From: an uncultured Acidobacteriia bacterium
Lineage (GTDB): Bacteria > Acidobacteriota > Terriglobia > Bryobacterales > Bryobacteraceae
Reading direction: 5' to 3'
Assembly: GCA_903929755.1 (NCBI GenBank)
Contig: CAIYVZ010000034.1
Location: forward strand, 1-64,000
Length of the DNA stretch: 64,000 nt
Shown: positions 45,890 to 53,047 of the stretch, one piece after another
Numbering within the stretch: position 1 is the stretch's first letter
Layout of the letters: each line of letters begins with the position of its first letter
Notes under the pieces: model-generated
What the model was told of the DNA's origin: nothing
The model's input: the letters and a program-made list of their open reading frames with translations, nothing else
Databases searched by the model: none
Position numbers and translations under genes: made by a program

Positions 45890-46876
45890 ATGAGCAAGCT
45901 TAACGTAGTAGTTTTGTATGGTGGCCGTTCCGGCGAGCACGAGATCTCGCTGCGTTCGGCCGAGGCCGTGATCGCCGCCATGAATCCCGATAAGTATCAG
46001 GTTTCGCGATATTTTATCGACCTGGAAGGCCAATGGGAGCCGGGGCCAATTCTGCCGGTACCAGGCGCCCATCCGGATATAGATGTTGTCTTCCCTGTCC
46101 TTCACGGCACTTTTGGCGAAGATGGCACGGTCCAGGGCCTGCTGGAGTTGGCCGACCTGCCCTATGTGGGCGCCAATGTTCTGGCGTCCGCCGTGTCCAT
46201 GGACAAGGACATTATGAAACGGGTGTGCCGGGACAGGGGGCTGCCGGTGGTGGACTACGTGGTGCTTTCCCGCGACGATATCGACGCGGCCGCGGTTGCG
46301 GCGCAGTTGCCGTTCCCGATGTTCGTGAAGCCTGCCAATCTGGGGTCTTCTGTCGGGATCTCCAAGGCGCACGATCTGGCTGAACTGGAGGCCGCGCTGA
46401 AGCTGGCGGCTGAATTCGACCGGAAAATCATTGTGGAACGGGGGGTGGAAGGTCGGGAATTCGAATGCGGTGTGCTTGGAAATGAACACCCAGCCGCTTC
46501 TATACCGTGTGAAATTCTGCCCTCAAAAGAGTTTTACGACTACGAAGATAAATATTTATTGAATCTGGCTAAAGTGGAACTTCCGGCGAAACTCTCGGAA
46601 GAGGACACTGCGGAGATGCGGCGACTAGCCGTGGCTTGTTACGAAGCTGTCGGCTGCGAAGGTATGGGGCGGGTGGATTTTCTGCGGGAGGCTTCCACGG
46701 GGAAGCTGTTCATTAATGAAATCAACACGATACCGGGTTTCACCTCGATCAGTATGTACCCCAGGATGTGGGAGTATACCGGGATTCCCTACCGGGATCT
46801 GATTGACCATTTAATTGAACTGGCGCTGGAACGCCATGCACAAAAGAAGGCGACCCGATTCGCCCGTCAAGTGTAA
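45890..46876 (+). CDS. ddl: D-alanine-D-alanine ligase
   Basis: 328 residues, full length for Ddl. ATP-grasp motifs: VVLYGGRSGEHEISLRSAEA (N-domain), FPVLHGTFGEDGTVQGLLEL, FVKPANLGSSVGISKAHDL, GRVDFLREAS and FINEINTIPGFTSISMYP (Mg site and serine/omega loop). It makes D-Ala-D-Ala for peptidoglycan. Its ATG directly follows the asnS stop. The 3' part (from about 46500) is duplicated in decayed form at 49384-49678. Confidence 0.96.
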   Translation: MSKLNVVVLYGGRSGEHEISLRSAEAVIAAMNPDKYQVSRYFIDLEGQWEPGPILPVPGAHPDIDVVFPVLHGTFGEDGTVQGLLELADLPYVGANVLASAVSMDKDIMKRVCRDRGLPVVDYVVLSRDDIDAAAVAAQLPFPMFVKPANLGSSVGISKAHDLAELEAALKLAAEFDRKIIVERGVEGREFECGVLGNEHPAASIPCEILPSKEFYDYEDKYLLNLAKVELPAKLSEEDTAEMRRLAVACYEAVGCEGMGRVDFLREASTGKLFINEINTIPGFTSISMYPRMWEYTGIPYRDLIDHLIELALERHAQKKATRFARQV

Positions 46877-46929
46877 TTCAGCGAAAACCCATCTTGCTAT
46901 AGCCCTGCTGGTGTCCCACAATTAGTACT

Positions 46930-48825
46930 TTGGGTCTTCGCATTCCAAACCGGGTTTTGTATGGCGCAACGTTTGCGCTTCTGCTGGCGCTAGGGGCGAT
47001 CGCAGCCCTGCGGCTGCTGGAACTCGAGCGGAGTTTGGGCGATACTTCCCAAGGGCTGTTGGTCTCGGGCCGGATCGGTCATTTGAATGGCCTGGTGGGG
47101 CGGACGAGCTCTGAATCGGAAAGTCTGGTAAGAAAATACGACCCTCAGCTTGCAGAGGAGTTTTCAGCCGACCTGCTCCGGGTGCAGCGCGCCGTGCGGG
47201 AGGTGGAGCCGCAGTTCCGCGCCCAACCGGAGCAGTTGGCCCGGTTCCGGGTGATTCGGGAATGGGTGGACGACCAATTCATCTTCCTTCGAAGCGGTGC
47301 CCCGAAGCAGGACGAGGATACGGCGCTGGCGCTGTTGCGGGCGACCATCGTCGCAATCTCTAACGAAGATTTGTCGCAACTCCGGCTCACGCTCCAGCAC
47401 GAGCGGGAGCTGGCTTCCAGTTCCAGGTTCTTGTTCTGGGTTCTTTCCGCCGTGTCTCTTGCTGTTTTGCTCTTTACTGTGAGGCGCTCCACGGGTGACA
47501 GCCGGAAGCGGAGCGCGGCGGAACGGGCGCTGGCGGTAAGGGAAGCGCAATACCGTCAGGTAGTGGAAGCGGCCGGCGATATTATCTACCGGACTGACAA
47601 GACTGGCCGCTTCACCTTCTGTAATCCGGCTGCTCTCAATATGCTGCACTGGACGGAACAAGAGGTCATTGGTCGAAGCTACCTGAAACTGATCCGCCAT
47701 GACAAGCGCAAAGAAGTGGAGCGCTTCTATATGCGGCAGTTTGCGCGTCAAAGGAAAAACAGCTACTACGAGTTTCCGATTTTGGATGGCCACGGGCATG
47801 AACGCTGGATTGGGCAGAATGCCCAGCCGATTTCGGGGCCGGAAGGCTTTGAGGGTTTCCAGGCCATTGCGCGGGATATTACGGAGCGCAAGAGGGCGGA
47901 ACTGGAATTGAGCCGGAGCCGGACTTTCGTCGAGCGTATTGCGGCCACCACGCCAGGTATCTTGTACGTTTACGACATCGTGGAGCGTCAGACTCTGTTC
48001 AGCAACCGCGAAGTAGTAACGGTATTGGGGTACAAACCGGATGAAATAGAGGCGTATCTGGCGAATGCTGCTACCCATTTTCACCCGGACGATATCGGTG
48101 CGATTCGGGCTCACCATGAAGCTCTGCGTCGCGCAGCCGACGGCGAAGTTCGGCGTCTGGAATACAGGGCGCGGCACCGCGACGGACACTGGGTCTGGCT
48201 GGCGGCCCGTGACACCCCGTTTAAGCGAGGTAACGATGGCCTGGTGTGTCAGATTGTCGGCATCGCTCAGGATGTGACGGCTCGCCGGGCAGCGCAGGAA
48301 AGGCTCACGTGGCAGGCGAACTACGATGCCCTGACCGGGCTGGCAAACCGCCACTATTTCTGGGGACAGTTGCAGACAGTTCTGCGCCGTGCCGCGATCG
48401 AACACAGTGTGGTGTCACTTTGTCTGCTGGACGTGGACAACTTTAAGGAAATCAACGATAAGTACGGCCATGCGGCGGGCGACGAGGTTCTGGAGGCGGT
48501 CGGTTCCATCCTTCGGACGGAGTTGCGTTCGAGCGACCTTTCCGGGCGGCTGGGGGGCGACGAGTTTACTTTCGTGCTGCCGGATACCAGTTCTCACGAT
48601 GCGGCGCGTTTGGCTGAGCGGATTCTGGATCGGCTGCGTACCCAGGCTTTTGGGGCCGGCGCAGAGACCGAGCCATTTCTGGTTACCGCAACTCTCGGGA
48701 TTGCGCAATCGCGTCTCGATCAATCGCGTCTCGATATCGACGCGAGGGAACTGATGGAGTCGGCCGATCGGGCGTTGTATCGGGCGAAGGCCGCGGGTCG
48801 CAATCGCGTCTCCATTGATGCCTGA
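46930..48825 (+). CDS. PAS-PAS-GGDEF diguanylate cyclase, membrane-bound (copy 1)
   Basis: 631 residues from a TTG; the paralogue starts with the same TTG context (TTGGGT). TM1 about 10-28, periplasmic sensor about 30-165, TM2 about 166-184 (FLFWVLSAVSLAVLLFTV), PAS1 about 205-325 (AGDIIYRTDKTGRFTFCNPA), PAS2 about 330-455 (GILYVYDIVERQTLFSNREV), GGDEF domain from about 460. The motif GGDEF is at 542-546 and the inhibitory I-site RSSD lies five residues before it, so an active, product-inhibited c-di-GMP synthase is expected. A second copy follows at 49702. Confidence 0.92.
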   Translation: MGLRIPNRVLYGATFALLLALGAIAALRLLELERSLGDTSQGLLVSGRIGHLNGLVGRTSSESESLVRKYDPQLAEEFSADLLRVQRAVREVEPQFRAQPEQLARFRVIREWVDDQFIFLRSGAPKQDEDTALALLRATIVAISNEDLSQLRLTLQHERELASSSRFLFWVLSAVSLAVLLFTVRRSTGDSRKRSAAERALAVREAQYRQVVEAAGDIIYRTDKTGRFTFCNPAALNMLHWTEQEVIGRSYLKLIRHDKRKEVERFYMRQFARQRKNSYYEFPILDGHGHERWIGQNAQPISGPEGFEGFQAIARDITERKRAELELSRSRTFVERIAATTPGILYVYDIVERQTLFSNREVVTVLGYKPDEIEAYLANAATHFHPDDIGAIRAHHEALRRAADGEVRRLEYRARHRDGHWVWLAARDTPFKRGNDGLVCQIVGIAQDVTARRAAQERLTWQANYDALTGLANRHYFWGQLQTVLRRAAIEHSVVSLCLLDVDNFKEINDKYGHAAGDEVLEAVGSILRTELRSSDLSGRLGGDEFTFVLPDTSSHDAARLAERILDRLRTQAFGAGAETEPFLVTATLGIAQSRLDQSRLDIDARELMESADRALYRAKAAGRNRVSIDA

Positions 48826-48846
48826 ATTCCTGCTGCTGTAGCCGGA

Positions 48847-49440
48847 ATGCCGGTACTACTCAGTCTGTTTCTTTTCGCAGGATGCGCGCTGGCGCAGAAT
48901 CCCTTGGTCCTGAAAGCGGCCCGGCTTTTTGACGGAAAAGCAGGTGCCCTCGTCTCTCCGGGGCTGGTGGTTGTGGTGGCTGGAAAGATTACCGGCGTTG
49001 GTACTACCGCGCAGATTCCTCGAGATGCGCAGGTGATCGACCTCGGCGATGCCACGCTGCTGCCTGGCTTCCTGGATGCGCATACGCATCTGACTCTGCC
49101 CTACAGCGATGACTGGAAGGGGGCGACTTTCGACGGCCTTCGCAAACCTGTCTCCGAGCAGACGCTGGACGCCGCGGAGAACGCCCGCAAGACGCTGATG
49201 GCGGGCTTCACCACCGTTCGTGACGTCGGGTCCCACGATTACATTGATGTTGGTTTACGCAACGCCATTCGTGACGGCAAGATTGAAGGTCCACGGATGC
49301 TGGTGGCGGTTCATGCCATAGGTTCCACCGGGGGGCACTGCGACGACGACTCCGGGTTTCGTGCCGGTATTTTTGCCTCTGTGCCCTGTCAAATTTTGCC
49401 TTCCAAAGAGTTTTACGACTACGAAGATAAATATTGCTGA
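48847..49440 (+). pseudogene. Amidohydrolase N-terminus fused to a ddl fragment
   Basis: The ORF begins as an exported imidazolonepropionase-like amidohydrolase: signal peptide (MPVLLSLFLFAGCALAQ), LLPGFLDAHTHLTLPYSDDW with the first metal-binding HxH, ENARKTLMAGFTTVRDVGSH and HAIGSTGGHCDDDSG. At about residue 178 it switches abruptly to CQILPSKEFYDYEDKY, a copy of ddl residues near 206-222, and stops. The family normally has over 400 residues; the second half with the other metal ligands is missing. The 197-residue chimera is probably inactive. Confidence 0.8.
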
Positions 49441-49678
49441 ATCTGGCCAAAATAGAACTTCCGGCCCGGCTTTCCCCGTAAGACACAGCCGAAATGCGGC
49501 GTCTGGCTGTCGCCTGTTACGCAGCCGTCGGCTGCGAAGGTATGCGGCGGGTCGATTTCCTGCTCGAGGCTTCCCGTATCCGGACCTGCTGGATCGTCTC
49601 ATTGAGCTGGCGCCCGAACGCCACGCGCAAAAGCAAGCCACCCGGTTTGCCCGTCCGGCGAAATTTACCTTGCTATAG
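49384..49678 (+). pseudogene. Decayed 3' fragment of ddl
   Basis: Closely follows 46505-46876 of ddl. A one-base deletion makes an early stop at 49438-49440, other in-frame stops follow (tttccccgtaagac), and about 100 bp encoding the NEINTIPGF part are deleted. The end (CGCCACGCGCAAAAGCAAGC) and the intergenic spacer before the second GGDEF gene are also recognisable duplicates. Confidence 0.85.
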
Positions 49679-49701
49679 TACTCTATGCCACAATTAAAGG
49701 T

Positions 49702-51576
49702 TTGGGTTTTCCAATTCCAAACCGAGTCTTGTACGGTATCGCGTTTGCCCTGCTGCTTATCTCAGGGGCGGTTGCCGCGTGGCGCTTACTGGAATTGGAG
49801 CGGGGTTTGGATGATACTTCCGCCCGACTACTCGTTTATGGCCGTATCGATAAGTTGAGCTCCCTCGTGGCGGAGACGACCGCGGATTCCGCGCGACTGG
49901 CGAAGAAATTTGACCCCCAGCATGCGGCGCTATTGTCAGCCGAACTCGTCGTGGAACAGGGCGTCCTTACCGAGGTCGCGCATCTCTTTCTCGGCCAACC
50001 GGAGCAACTGGCTCGCGTTCGCATCATCAGAGACTGGGTGGATTCGGAGCTCGGTTTCCTCCAAAGGGGCATCTCCAGGCCGAATGAGAATCACTTCCTC
50101 ATTTTGGTCTGGCTTACTGCTTCGGCAATCTCGAACGATTATCGTTCGCAGCTTCGGCTCGCCGTCCAGCAAGAACAGGAGCTGGGTTTAAATTCCAGAC
50201 TACGGTTCTGGGTGCTTGCCGCTGTATCGCTTGCCGTTCTGTTCTTTACCCTCTGGCGCTCTGCCGTTGACGGTCGGAGACGGGCCGTCGCGGAACGGGC
50301 GCTGGCAGTTCAGGAAGCGCAATACCGGCAGGTGGTGGAATCGGCCGGAGACATTATCTACCGGACCGACCATATTGGCCGCTTTACCTTCTGCAATCCC
50401 GCTACTCTCAATCTGCTGCACTCAACCCCGCAAGCGGTAATTGGCAGAAGCTGCCGCAAGCTGATCCGCCACGACAAACGCAAAGAAGCGGAGCGCTTCT
50501 ACGTGCGTCAGTTCACACGTAAGATAGAAAACAGTTATTACGAATTCCCCATCCTGGATGGCAGAGGAGACGAGCGCTGGCTTGGGCAGAATGCCCAGCC
50601 GATTATCGGGCCCAATGGTTTTGAAGGCTTTCAGGCTATTGCCCGTGACATTACCGAGCGCAAGCGGGCCGAGTTGGAGTTGAACCGAAGCCGGACGTTT
50701 GTCGAAAAGATTGCCGCTACCACGCCAGGCATGTTGTATGTTTACGACATTCTCGAGCGACGTACCTTGTACAGCAACAGTGAAGAGATGACGCTGCTGG
50801 GGTACGAGCTGGATGAGCTCGACGCGTATCCCGGCAACGCCACCACCCAGTTCCATCCCGAGGAGACGGGGGCGATTCGGGCCCATCATGAAGGCCTGCG
50901 CTACGCTGCCGACGGGGAAGTGCGGCGCCTCGAGTATCGGGCGCGACATCGCGACGGCCACTGGGTTTGGCTCGCGTCCCGGGATACCCCGTTTGAACGA
51001 GGCAAAGACGGCCTGGTAACCCAGATTGTCGGCATCGCTCAGGACGTCACCGCCAGCCTGGAGGCCCAGGAGAAGCTCACCTGGCAGGCGAACTACGACG
51101 CCCTTACCGGCCTTGCCAACCGCCACTCTTTCTGGGGACGATTGCACACAGTTCTGGACTGTGCCGCTACCGAACACCGTGTTGTGTCGCTCTGCCTGCT
51201 CGATGTGGACAACTTCAAGGAAATTAACGACAAGTACGGCCACGCGGCGGGTGACCAGGTTCTCGAGGCGCTGGGTGCCATCCTCCGGACGGAGCTTCGG
51301 GCGAGTGACCTTTCCGCGCGCCTTGGTGGCGATGAGTTTACATTTGTGCTGCCGGATACGGGCGCTCACGACGCGACGCGCCTCGCGGAACGGATTCTGG
51401 ATCGGCTGCGTACCCATGCTTTTGGAGTCGGCGCCGAGACCGGGCCATTTCTGGTCACCGCTTCCCTCGGGCTTGCGCAATCGCATCTTGGGACGGACGC
51501 CAAAGCCCTGATGGACTCCGCTGACCAGGCGTTGTATCGGGCGAAGGCCGCGGGTCGCAATCGCGTCCGGCATTGA
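49702..51576 (+). CDS. PAS-PAS-GGDEF diguanylate cyclase, membrane-bound (copy 2)
   Basis: 624 residues, colinear with the 46930 gene over its whole length, with GGDEF again at 542-546 and I-site RASD. The PAS and GGDEF domains are very similar (AGDIIYRTDHIGRFTFCNPA; LLDVDNFKEINDKYGHAAGD), while the periplasmic sensor (about 30-165) is more divergent. A seven-residue repeat near the C-terminus of copy 1 (SRLDQSRLD) is absent here. The intact frame after duplication, beside decayed neighbours, implies that selection kept it. Starts with TTG. Confidence 0.92.
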   Translation: MGFPIPNRVLYGIAFALLLISGAVAAWRLLELERGLDDTSARLLVYGRIDKLSSLVAETTADSARLAKKFDPQHAALLSAELVVEQGVLTEVAHLFLGQPEQLARVRIIRDWVDSELGFLQRGISRPNENHFLILVWLTASAISNDYRSQLRLAVQQEQELGLNSRLRFWVLAAVSLAVLFFTLWRSAVDGRRRAVAERALAVQEAQYRQVVESAGDIIYRTDHIGRFTFCNPATLNLLHSTPQAVIGRSCRKLIRHDKRKEAERFYVRQFTRKIENSYYEFPILDGRGDERWLGQNAQPIIGPNGFEGFQAIARDITERKRAELELNRSRTFVEKIAATTPGMLYVYDILERRTLYSNSEEMTLLGYELDELDAYPGNATTQFHPEETGAIRAHHEGLRYAADGEVRRLEYRARHRDGHWVWLASRDTPFERGKDGLVTQIVGIAQDVTASLEAQEKLTWQANYDALTGLANRHSFWGRLHTVLDCAATEHRVVSLCLLDVDNFKEINDKYGHAAGDQVLEALGAILRTELRASDLSARLGGDEFTFVLPDTGAHDATRLAERILDRLRTHAFGVGAETGPFLVTASLGLAQSHLGTDAKALMDSADQALYRAKAAGRNRVRH

Positions 51577-51604
51577 TGCCTGAATTCCTGCTGCCGTAGG
51601 CGGA

Positions 51605-51763
51605 ATGCGAACCTCGCCTGTCTGTTCGTTCTGGCTGGTTGCGCTGGAAGCGGGTCTCGCTCCACGGGTTACCCAGGCCCATTTCCCGGCAGACTCCTGA
51701 GATGTGGAGAATGCGGGCAAGACGCTGGTGCCGGGCTTCACGACCCTGCCTGACGTGACCTGA
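51605..51763 (+). pseudogene. Eroded second copy of the amidohydrolase 5' end
   Basis: Begins with an ATG in the context of the 48847 gene (CCTGAATTCCTGCTGCCGTAG precedes in both). After a large deletion it keeps GAGAATGCGGGCAAGACGCT, matching ENARKTL of the first copy, and ends GACGTGACCTGA. Frame and length are lost. Confidence 0.7.
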
Positions 51764-51787
51764 GGGGCGGCGAAGCAACCGGACGGC

Positions 51788-53047
51788 TTATAACGTATAG
51801 GGCTTGCGGTATTCGCGAGTCAGCAGCGCGTTGGCTTCTTTGTCATTGCCAAAGCTTTTGCCATCAAACTGCAATCGGCGACCGACCCGATAACTGATAT
51901 TCGCCAGATGCGCCAGGTCTGCGGACGCCACGCCCTCAGCAATCTCCGCGTTCAGATCCTCGCGGCGGCGGGACTTTACCGCCTTTACGAAATTATCGAA
52001 ATGAGGTGCGGTGTCGTAAGCGTCCTTTGACTCCACGATTACTTCTTTCACCTTCTGCTTGTCCTCTCCCTTGTAAACGCGGAAACCGGCATAATCCACG
52101 GCCATGAAGCCTTCGGTGCCGTAGATCAGGTCGCCGATCATCACGTTTTCTTCGGGTGGCGTGGGCAACCCGCGCACATCGAACACCAGTTGCTGTTTGC
52201 CGTAGTCAAATGTTGACAGTTGGGTGTTCGGAGTCTCCTGGTCGTCGTCGTACGCGTACTTTCCGCCGGTTGAGACAACCGCCTGCGGGAGTGCTTTGCC
52301 CAGCGCCCAGCGCGCAAAATCCAGTTCGTGAACCCCCTGGTTGCCGATGTCGCCGTTTCCCGTATCCCAAAACCAGTGCCAGTTGTATTTGAACCGGTTC
52401 ATGGTGAAAGGCCGCATGGCTGCGGGCCCTAAAAACTGATCCCAATCGATTCCGGCCGGAACTGTTTCCACCGGCGCCTTGCCAATCGACTTGCGTCGTT
52501 TGAAACAGGTGCCTTTTGCCATGTAGACATCGCCAATGATTCCTGTCTTCAGCAGTTCGACGGCCTGTTTGCGGAACGCGATGCTGCGGCTTTGCGACCC
52601 AACCTGCACCATACGGTTGTAACGTCGGGCGGCCTCCACCATCTTCCCGCCCTCATAAACGTTGTGGCAGGCCGGTTTTTCCACGTAGACGTCCTTACCC
52701 GCCTGGCAGGCCCACACCGTGCCCAGCGCATGCCAGTGGTTGGGCGTCGCCATCGTTACGGCGTCAATATCTTTATCCTCAAAGACCCGGCGCATGTCCG
52801 AATAGGCTTTTGGTTTGCGGCCTGAATTCTTTTCAACCAGGGCCACAGCACGTTCGGCTGCTGCCTGGTTTACGTCGCAGACAGCCGCGATATTGGCACC
52901 GGGTACCCGCGCCAGGAAGTTGATGTGGTCTGTGCCGCGTCCGCCCAGTCCGATCACGGTCAGGTTGGCCACGTCATTGGCCCCGAACGCGTTGCGCGCC
53001 AGTGCCGCAGTGGCGGCTCCCATCAGAAAATGCCGTCGTTGCATCAT
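51788..53047 (-). CDS. Tat-exported Gfo/Idh/MocA-family oxidoreductase
   Basis: 419 residues from the first of two adjacent ATGs. A twin-arginine leader (MMQRRHFLMGAATAALARNA) precedes a Rossmann domain (LTVIGLGGRGTDHINFLARV), the family motif VYVEKPACHNVYEGGKMVEA (EKP) and a C-terminal alpha/beta domain with WHWFWDTGNGDIGNQGVHEL. Such exported Gfo/Idh proteins keep a tightly bound NAD(P) and may act on glycans in the periplasm. The start codons overlap the stop of the aminotransferase upstream, so the two are co-translated. Confidence 0.9.
   Translation of the reverse strand: MMQRRHFLMGAATAALARNAFGANDVANLTVIGLGGRGTDHINFLARVPGANIAAVCDVNQAAAERAVALVEKNSGRKPKAYSDMRRVFEDKDIDAVTMATPNHWHALGTVWACQAGKDVYVEKPACHNVYEGGKMVEAARRYNRMVQVGSQSRSIAFRKQAVELLKTGIIGDVYMAKGTCFKRRKSIGKAPVETVPAGIDWDQFLGPAAMRPFTMNRFKYNWHWFWDTGNGDIGNQGVHELDFARWALGKALPQAVVSTGGKYAYDDDQETPNTQLSTFDYGKQQLVFDVRGLPTPPEENVMIGDLIYGTEGFMAVDYAGFRVYKGEDKQKVKEVIVESKDAYDTAPHFDNFVKAVKSRRREDLNAEIAEGVASADLAHLANISYRVGRRLQFDGKSFGNDKEANALLTREYRKPYTL

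Follow-up and report, generated by a model that had tools for sequence, protein, structure and literature searches.

Two similar genes for predicted membrane diguanylate cyclases, c1 and c2, stand one behind the other in a draft Bryobacteraceae genome of 6.86 Mb, which raises the question of whether they are a plain duplication or were brought together in some other way. The window, the whole stretch of 64,000 nucleotides that was analysed, is part of contig C34 of this genome. The earlier note had read the locus as a tandem duplication in which both cyclases were kept and everything else decayed, and had proposed that the second cyclase was selected as a differently tuned sensor. From position 45890, the gene order is ddl, c1, amidohydrolase codons 1–176, ddl from codon 203, c2 and amidohydrolase scraps. 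The truncated genes are written ddl' and amidohydrolase', the intact ddl is ddl1, and G163 and other G numbers are related genomes. The neighbour genes are called asnS, MFS and "SpoIIE-type phosphatase" here. The features are as follows.

45890–46876, + strand: intact ddl, D-Ala-D-Ala ligase, 328 aa, upstream neighbour of unit 1 (Pfam Dala_Dala_lig_C, 229 bits; asnS context)
46496–46876, + strand: ddl 3' part of unit 1, counterpart of ddl' (self-similarity)
46894–46924, + strand: conserved block TTGCTATAG-N-CACAATTA upstream of the c1 TTG start (common to c1, c2 and G163)
46930–48825, + strand: cyclase 1 (c1), 631 aa, predicted helical N-terminal sensor-PAS-PAS-GGDEF (ORF, Pfam, alignment, model)
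48847–49374, + strand: amidohydrolase' stump, codons 1–176 (domain search, G163 comparison)
49374..49375, no strand: join of amidohydrolase codon 176 and ddl codon 203 (self-similarity, sequence comparison)
49375–49660, + strand: ddl' fragment, 3' part, with a 1-nt deletion, a TAA and a ~91-nt deletion (alignment)
49670–49696, + strand: conserved TTGCTATAG-N-CACAATTA block upstream of c2 (common to c1, c2 and G163)
49702–51576, + strand: cyclase 2 (c2), same architecture as c1, 624 aa, 73% identity to c1 (ORF, Pfam, alignment)
51577–51756, + strand: scraps of the unit 2 amidohydrolase 5' region (self-similarity)
51757–51795, no strand: rearrangement breakpoint between unit 2 and the Gfo/Idh block, which is on another contig in G163 (comparison)

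Comparison of the window with itself returned three direct matches: 46496–46696 with 49375–49574 (80%, E 1e-47), 46782–48850 with 49568–51608 (74% across 2075 columns, E 0) and 49176–49226 with 51706–51756 (82%, E 4e-9). The identities of 74–82% are well above chance, and the unit [ddl 3' part - TTG-started PAS/PAS/GGDEF gene - amidohydrolase 5' part] is present twice in direct orientation, as had been claimed. The join, formerly put at about 49384, is placed at 49374/49375, inside ORF 48847–49440, with no gap between amidohydrolase' and ddl'. The parental sequences are diverged and have no long word in common there, and any microhomology is ambiguous and amounts to a few bases at most.

The GG[DE]EF motif and the RxxD I-site are the signature motifs of diguanylate cyclases. 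The GGDEF domains of c1 and c2 score 155.3 and 152.0 bits against a Pfam curated cut-off of 23.8, and GGDEF (542–546) and the R and D of RxxD (533 and 536) are invariant across four aligned proteins, confirming that both copies keep these motifs in the same positions. The PAS domains also score above the Pfam cut-offs, so both copies resemble the PAS-PAS-GGDEF cyclases described in Pfam (PF00990, PF08447; solved relatives include PleD and WspR). They differ from these in the N-terminal sensor, where none of the three N-terminal regions searched matched a Pfam model at E ≤ 1. Judged by these motifs, c1 and c2 are predicted to be membrane diguanylate cyclases in which a helical sensor is combined with two PAS domains, and c2 probably still makes c-di-GMP, under different or weaker input. 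The sensor region is the most diverged part, again as described earlier, with 50% amino acid identity between c1 and c2 at 29–165 vs 82% in PAS1, 77% in PAS2 and 83% in GGDEF; in c1 it appears to hold two membrane helices. An AlphaFold model of the sensor (five sequences) has four long helices with a mean pLDDT of 70 and a pTM of 0.43. Its PDB matches include the helical sensor domains QseE, Adeh_2942, NarQ and PcaY mixed with designed helical bundles, and 0 of 661 matches reached E ≤ 0.001. Naming a sensor family was dropped, as there was no Pfam match and the PDB resemblance is one of fold class only. The TTG start is common to c1, c2 and the orthologues in G163 and L114–L116; the listed ORF of G041 starts with GTG. 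A search of both strands of the window finds TTGCTATAG at just two places, and the words TTGCTATAG and CACAATTA precede c1, c2 and the G163 orthologue. The block they form looks promoter-like, and each cyclase copy would then have its own promoter.

The same-genus set comprised 19 genomes including the own genome, with ortholog level set at 485 bits or more. One ortholog-level cyclase was found in 12 of the 18 other genomes and two in none of these drafts; G151 has a contig break at the cyclase locus, where a second copy could be hidden. The single-copy order that the earlier note had proposed to look for in relatives was found intact in G163 (asnS-ddl-GGDEF-amidohydrolase (430 aa)-MFS, all frames open). 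In G151, the cyclase is at a contig start with MFS directly after it, and ddl ends another contig. No amidohydrolase lies between cyclase and MFS there (L036 1437–1476), either because it was never gained or because it was independently lost. MFS is just downstream in 5 of 11 cyclase loci (G163, after the amidohydrolase, G151, G160, G153 and G158). Of the 15 same-genus ddl loci, 14 have asnS no more than ~1.1 kb upstream of the gene, directly abutting it in 7, and only the G163 locus (1 of 15) has the cyclase behind ddl in the flank that was retrieved. At E 1e-60, matches were present in 5 of 150 family genomes, namely the own genome, three of the same genus and G014 at 35%. A genome-contig alignment scan gave at least 594 stretches and 488 relatives; the best 80, which were kept, contain three orthologues at 51–60% (L114–L116), the remainder being at 25–46%. 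In the G160 orthologue (L116:3806–5743), DGDQF replaces GGDEF and RxxD is kept, so this protein may be a relative that binds c-di-GMP but is inactive.

c1 and c2 are sisters with an old divergence. In a tree of 13 sequences, from which, as from the AU test, G160 was absent because selection required the letters GGDE, they grouped with a UFBoot of 100 and no sequence was closer to c2 than c1. The topologies separating them (five of the eight tested) had AU p values of 0.0002–0.011, with an SH p of 0.055 for one of the five. The c2 protein branch is 5.3 times longer than that of c1 (0.386 vs 0.073), and neutral substitutions per codon are 1.4 on the c1 branch and 2.0 on the c2 branch. Third-codon-position identity between the units is 0.57 in ddl and 0.40–0.74 in the cyclase (16 windows, mean ~0.56), compared with 0.46 for c1-G163 and, over the same ddl codons, 0.51 for ddl1-G163. 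The synonymous difference between the units almost equals that between species, and the similar values in ddl and cyclase, little above the between-species level, point to one old divergence. Some outgroup branches in the amidohydrolase and sensor fits are at bound, which marks synonymous sites as saturated. Gene conversion between c1 and c2 was considered and rejected (longest shared variable-site run 8, permutation p 0.17).

The broken genes at the join are far less diverged. ddl' lacks ddl codons 1–202 and carries three lesions (a deletion of 1 nt, a single in-frame TAA at ddl codon 238 and a net deletion of ~91 nt), in agreement with the earlier description of a deleted and stopped piece; ddl is not lost from the locus, the full-length gene being kept upstream of unit 1. 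The amino acid identity of ddl1 and ddl' is 84%. amidohydrolase' runs for 176 codons without a stop at 74% amino acid identity to its 430-aa counterpart in G163, and its protein branch is shorter than that of G163 (0.167 vs 0.227). Its best NCBIfam model is Xaa-Pro dipeptidase, with a score under the model cut-off. The amidohydrolase of unit 2 is eroded, as noted before, to scraps at 51578–51621 and 51706–51756. No intact orthologous downstream amidohydrolase was found in the genome, only paralogues of ≤45% identity, which later loss could explain.

Two-phase fits gave a neutral time of 0.12 for ddl' (95% limit about 0.28, interpolated; 0.12–0.17 across four outgroup/site choices) and 0.03 for amidohydrolase' (limit about 0.23). 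The stumps carry about 0.03–0.17 neutral changes per codon vs 1.4–2.0 on the cyclase branches, and simulated neutral drift at t = 1.44 predicts an amino acid identity of 0.30–0.48 where 84% is observed between ddl' and ddl1. A simple duplication leaves copies that are mutually closest, as these are (UFBoot 100, AU test), and stumps as old as the copy divergence, whereas the equal-age neutral model was worse by 22.2, 18.4, 17.3 and 10.6 lnL for the four outgroup/site choices. As a control, 12 simulated neutral fragments with a true age of 1.23 returned a neutral phase of 1.0–1.6. For these fragments the functional phase came out anywhere between 0 and 2.6; the value fitted for ddl' therefore carries no weight and the neutral phase alone counts. 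When equal age was not required, making the ddl' branch neutral throughout cost 7.8 lnL (G163+G151), 4.1 (the same, first 270 codons) and only 2.6 (G161) and 0.8 (G152). Nearly all change then falls on ddl1 (2.0–3.0 vs 0.2–0.3); unit 1 would be the diverged newcomer, and a simple duplication would be contradicted even so. A p value of 1e-5 against ddl' neutrality is not relied on, as the outgroups are saturated at third positions and the result depends on the outgroup, and we rely on the equal-age test instead. The same saturation sets aside the count of changes assigned to ddl' at codon positions 1/2/3 (7/5/19, chi-square p 0.004; 16 changes were assigned to ddl1 and 12 were ambiguous). Overall, the join stumps seem to have no more than about a fifth of the age of the c1/c2 divergence.

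On its right side, unit 2 ends at a reciprocal rearrangement breakpoint. In G163, the amidohydrolase adjoins MFS (C33) and the phosphatase adjoins Gfo/Idh (C176); in the own genome, the amidohydrolase scrap adjoins Gfo/Idh (window 51757–51795) and the last codons of the phosphatase adjoin MFS (C59 = L100, about 6204/6208). Both G163 breakpoints fall between convergent gene ends. The exchange would most simply be an inversion. Since cyclase and MFS are adjacent in four further genomes and in G151 portions of either flank of the second join are no more than 0.5 kb apart, the own genome has the derived arrangement. A ~140-bp sequence at L100 1–142 occurs at 99–100% identity at nine other places among the matches listed in the genome; three copies begin contigs (C59, C102 and C207), and the repeat may break the assembly.

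Taken together, the repeat layout, the sisterhood of the cyclases, the age mismatch and the adjacent breakpoint argue for a recent splice of long-separated loci. We consider it probable, with some reserve, that two homologous ddl-GGDEF-amidohydrolase loci diverged as functional loci in separate sister lineages and were recently spliced head to tail. The splice was most likely a one-ended capture of a sister-lineage segment: one end of the incoming segment would pair homologously with the resident locus, the other would join illegitimately, amidohydrolase codon 176 to ddl codon 203, and this single step would yield truncated genes at the inner join only, plus two whole cyclases. We prefer capture because it produces the structure in one step and because similar displacement arrays are described (PMC3240628, PMC5361080). 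The interspecies source and the one-ended homology would both be part of it, and either unit could be the newcomer. The left side would fit the capture type, with a complete ddl outside the join, and the right side is obscured by decay and the breakpoint. ComEC and DprA family genes are present in the genome, and also in the control E. coli. No donor was found among the 18 other same-genus genomes. ddl' was too short for tree placement (support 40–43), so a donor identity from its phylogeny was dropped; one protein tree grouped ddl1 with G151 and set ddl' apart with a support of 80. The fuller account, that a second, differently sensing cyclase was captured from a sister species in one one-ended event at or near the inversion breakpoint, making the pair xenologues, is put forward tentatively, as a serious possibility that falls short of being probable.

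The main rival of capture is an old full-length duplication trimmed late. Here an intragenomic duplication, long tandem or ectopic, left two loci that both long stayed functional until, late on, amidohydrolase 1 became fused to ddl 2 through a deletion or rearrangement. It fits the age mismatch equally well and agrees with the sisterhood of c1 and c2, and the neighbouring breakpoint shows that the region was cut; we nevertheless consider it unlikely, as the duplicate ddl and amidohydrolase would have to stay functional through near-species-level synonymous divergence and the relatives have no second ortholog-level cyclase (0 of 18 drafts, with the G151 break). Moreover, C59 5085–6210, beside the reciprocal join, has no ddl or amidohydrolase similarity, and long tandem repeats are unstable. 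A single in-situ tandem duplication with ends at ddl codon 203 and amidohydrolase codon 176, followed by decay of all but the cyclases, is close to the earlier proposal, of which the direct repeat, the single-copy G163 and the two kept cyclases stand. The part that fails is decay since the duplication: the stumps look at least ~5 times too young, the equal-age model fits worse as above, amidohydrolase' retains its G163 identity and its 176 stop-free codons, and the predicted intact downstream amidohydrolase was not found in the genome, unless lost later. The layout, the single copy in G163 and the sister copies notwithstanding, we regard this duplication as improbable. More improbable still is a chimeric metagenome contig with two co-occurring species mis-joined at 49374. 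The named same-genus records are metagenome-assembled and the units are diverged like species, but the real lesions of ddl' make it a dead gene in whichever genome carries it, the two parental sequences have no long word in common where they meet, and the next junction has its matching reciprocal join on C59 of the same genome.

We class the finding as a good example of an event type already known and not as a new system. Homology-facilitated illegitimate recombination (HFIR) combines one homologous end with one illegitimate join (PMC3240628), and the one-ended scheme would likewise leave a single inner junction here. HFIR yields inserted unrelated DNA; the segment coming in here would be homologous along its whole length, though diverged, and the product a partial tandem repeat. 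HFIR-type joins are recognised by 3–10 bp of microhomology, against the few ambiguous bases at most between diverged parental sequences found here. Vibrio T6SS clusters are described as forming orphan immunity-gene arrays by sequential displacement, with HFIR proposed (PMC5361080); there too an incoming module displaces the old gene downstream and old and new adjoin, whereas our case has a c-di-GMP gene among housekeeping genes, one event and no toxin/immunity logic. Natural-transformation merodiploids (PMC3784515) are also partial tandem duplications by genetic exchange, but of ~100–900 kb and by unequal crossing-over at repeats, compared with ~2.8 kb and an old divergence here. A literature search found no paper naming this locus, which is no proof of absence. 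Adjacent similar bacterial genes are easily taken for duplications, and the broken genes at this join are a clock that contradicts such a reading. If the capture is true, the apparent tandem paralogue is a xenologue pair, and the two dead stumps give the event a date without recourse to the cyclases. Comparing the neutral age of stumps with copy divergence tells old copies that were spliced recently apart from a plain duplication and is applicable to any partial tandem repeat.

The age comparison also tempers the claim of a new c-di-GMP sensor tuned after duplication. Omega was 0.20 on the c2 branch vs 0.06 (p 1e-7), these c2 values being averages along the whole branch, much of which predates the join. 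The domain-wise dN/dS comparison revealed constraint in PAS and GGDEF, as omega = 1 was rejected on the c2 branch for the whole gene (6e-6), PAS (8e-5) and GGDEF (3e-4); for the first 200 codons omega was 0.43, not above 1, and omega = 1 was not rejected (p 0.11). The sensor excess of c2 equals 0.83 neutral changes per codon, a fit at 0.3 being worse by 4.2 units. It exceeds neutral drift since the join, so it is mostly older than the join unless positive selection followed. The excess replacements in PAS and GGDEF (0.12–0.17 neutral changes) are similar to those of ddl', so c2 may be neutral at present. By eye, c2 has 0 internal lesions in 1872 nt vs 3 in 305 nt of ddl' (p 0.003); p is 0.03 after pooling amidohydrolase' (0 in 528 nt) with ddl', and 0.01 and 0.09 if the single nucleotide inserted in the final codons of c2 is included. 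The chance of a stop-free c2 under neutrality is 0.19 at 0.10 and 0.02 at 0.25. The lesion contrast (p 0.003 to 0.09 by lesions counted) favours a c2 frame kept open by selection. Proof of present selection was dropped, given a lesion p of up to 0.09 and a PAS/GGDEF excess like that of ddl'. Over its history c2 was constrained outside the sensor, it may have been neutral since the join, and a retuned c2 sensor under selection is no more than possible. GC3 is equal in c1 and c2 (0.678), which counts against the capture. At window 51555–51576, the 1-nt insertion changes the C-terminal SIDA of c1 to RH and moves the stop, and c1 has a 15-nt tandem insertion in its GGDEF domain (window 48706–48735) that is absent from c2, G163 and G151.
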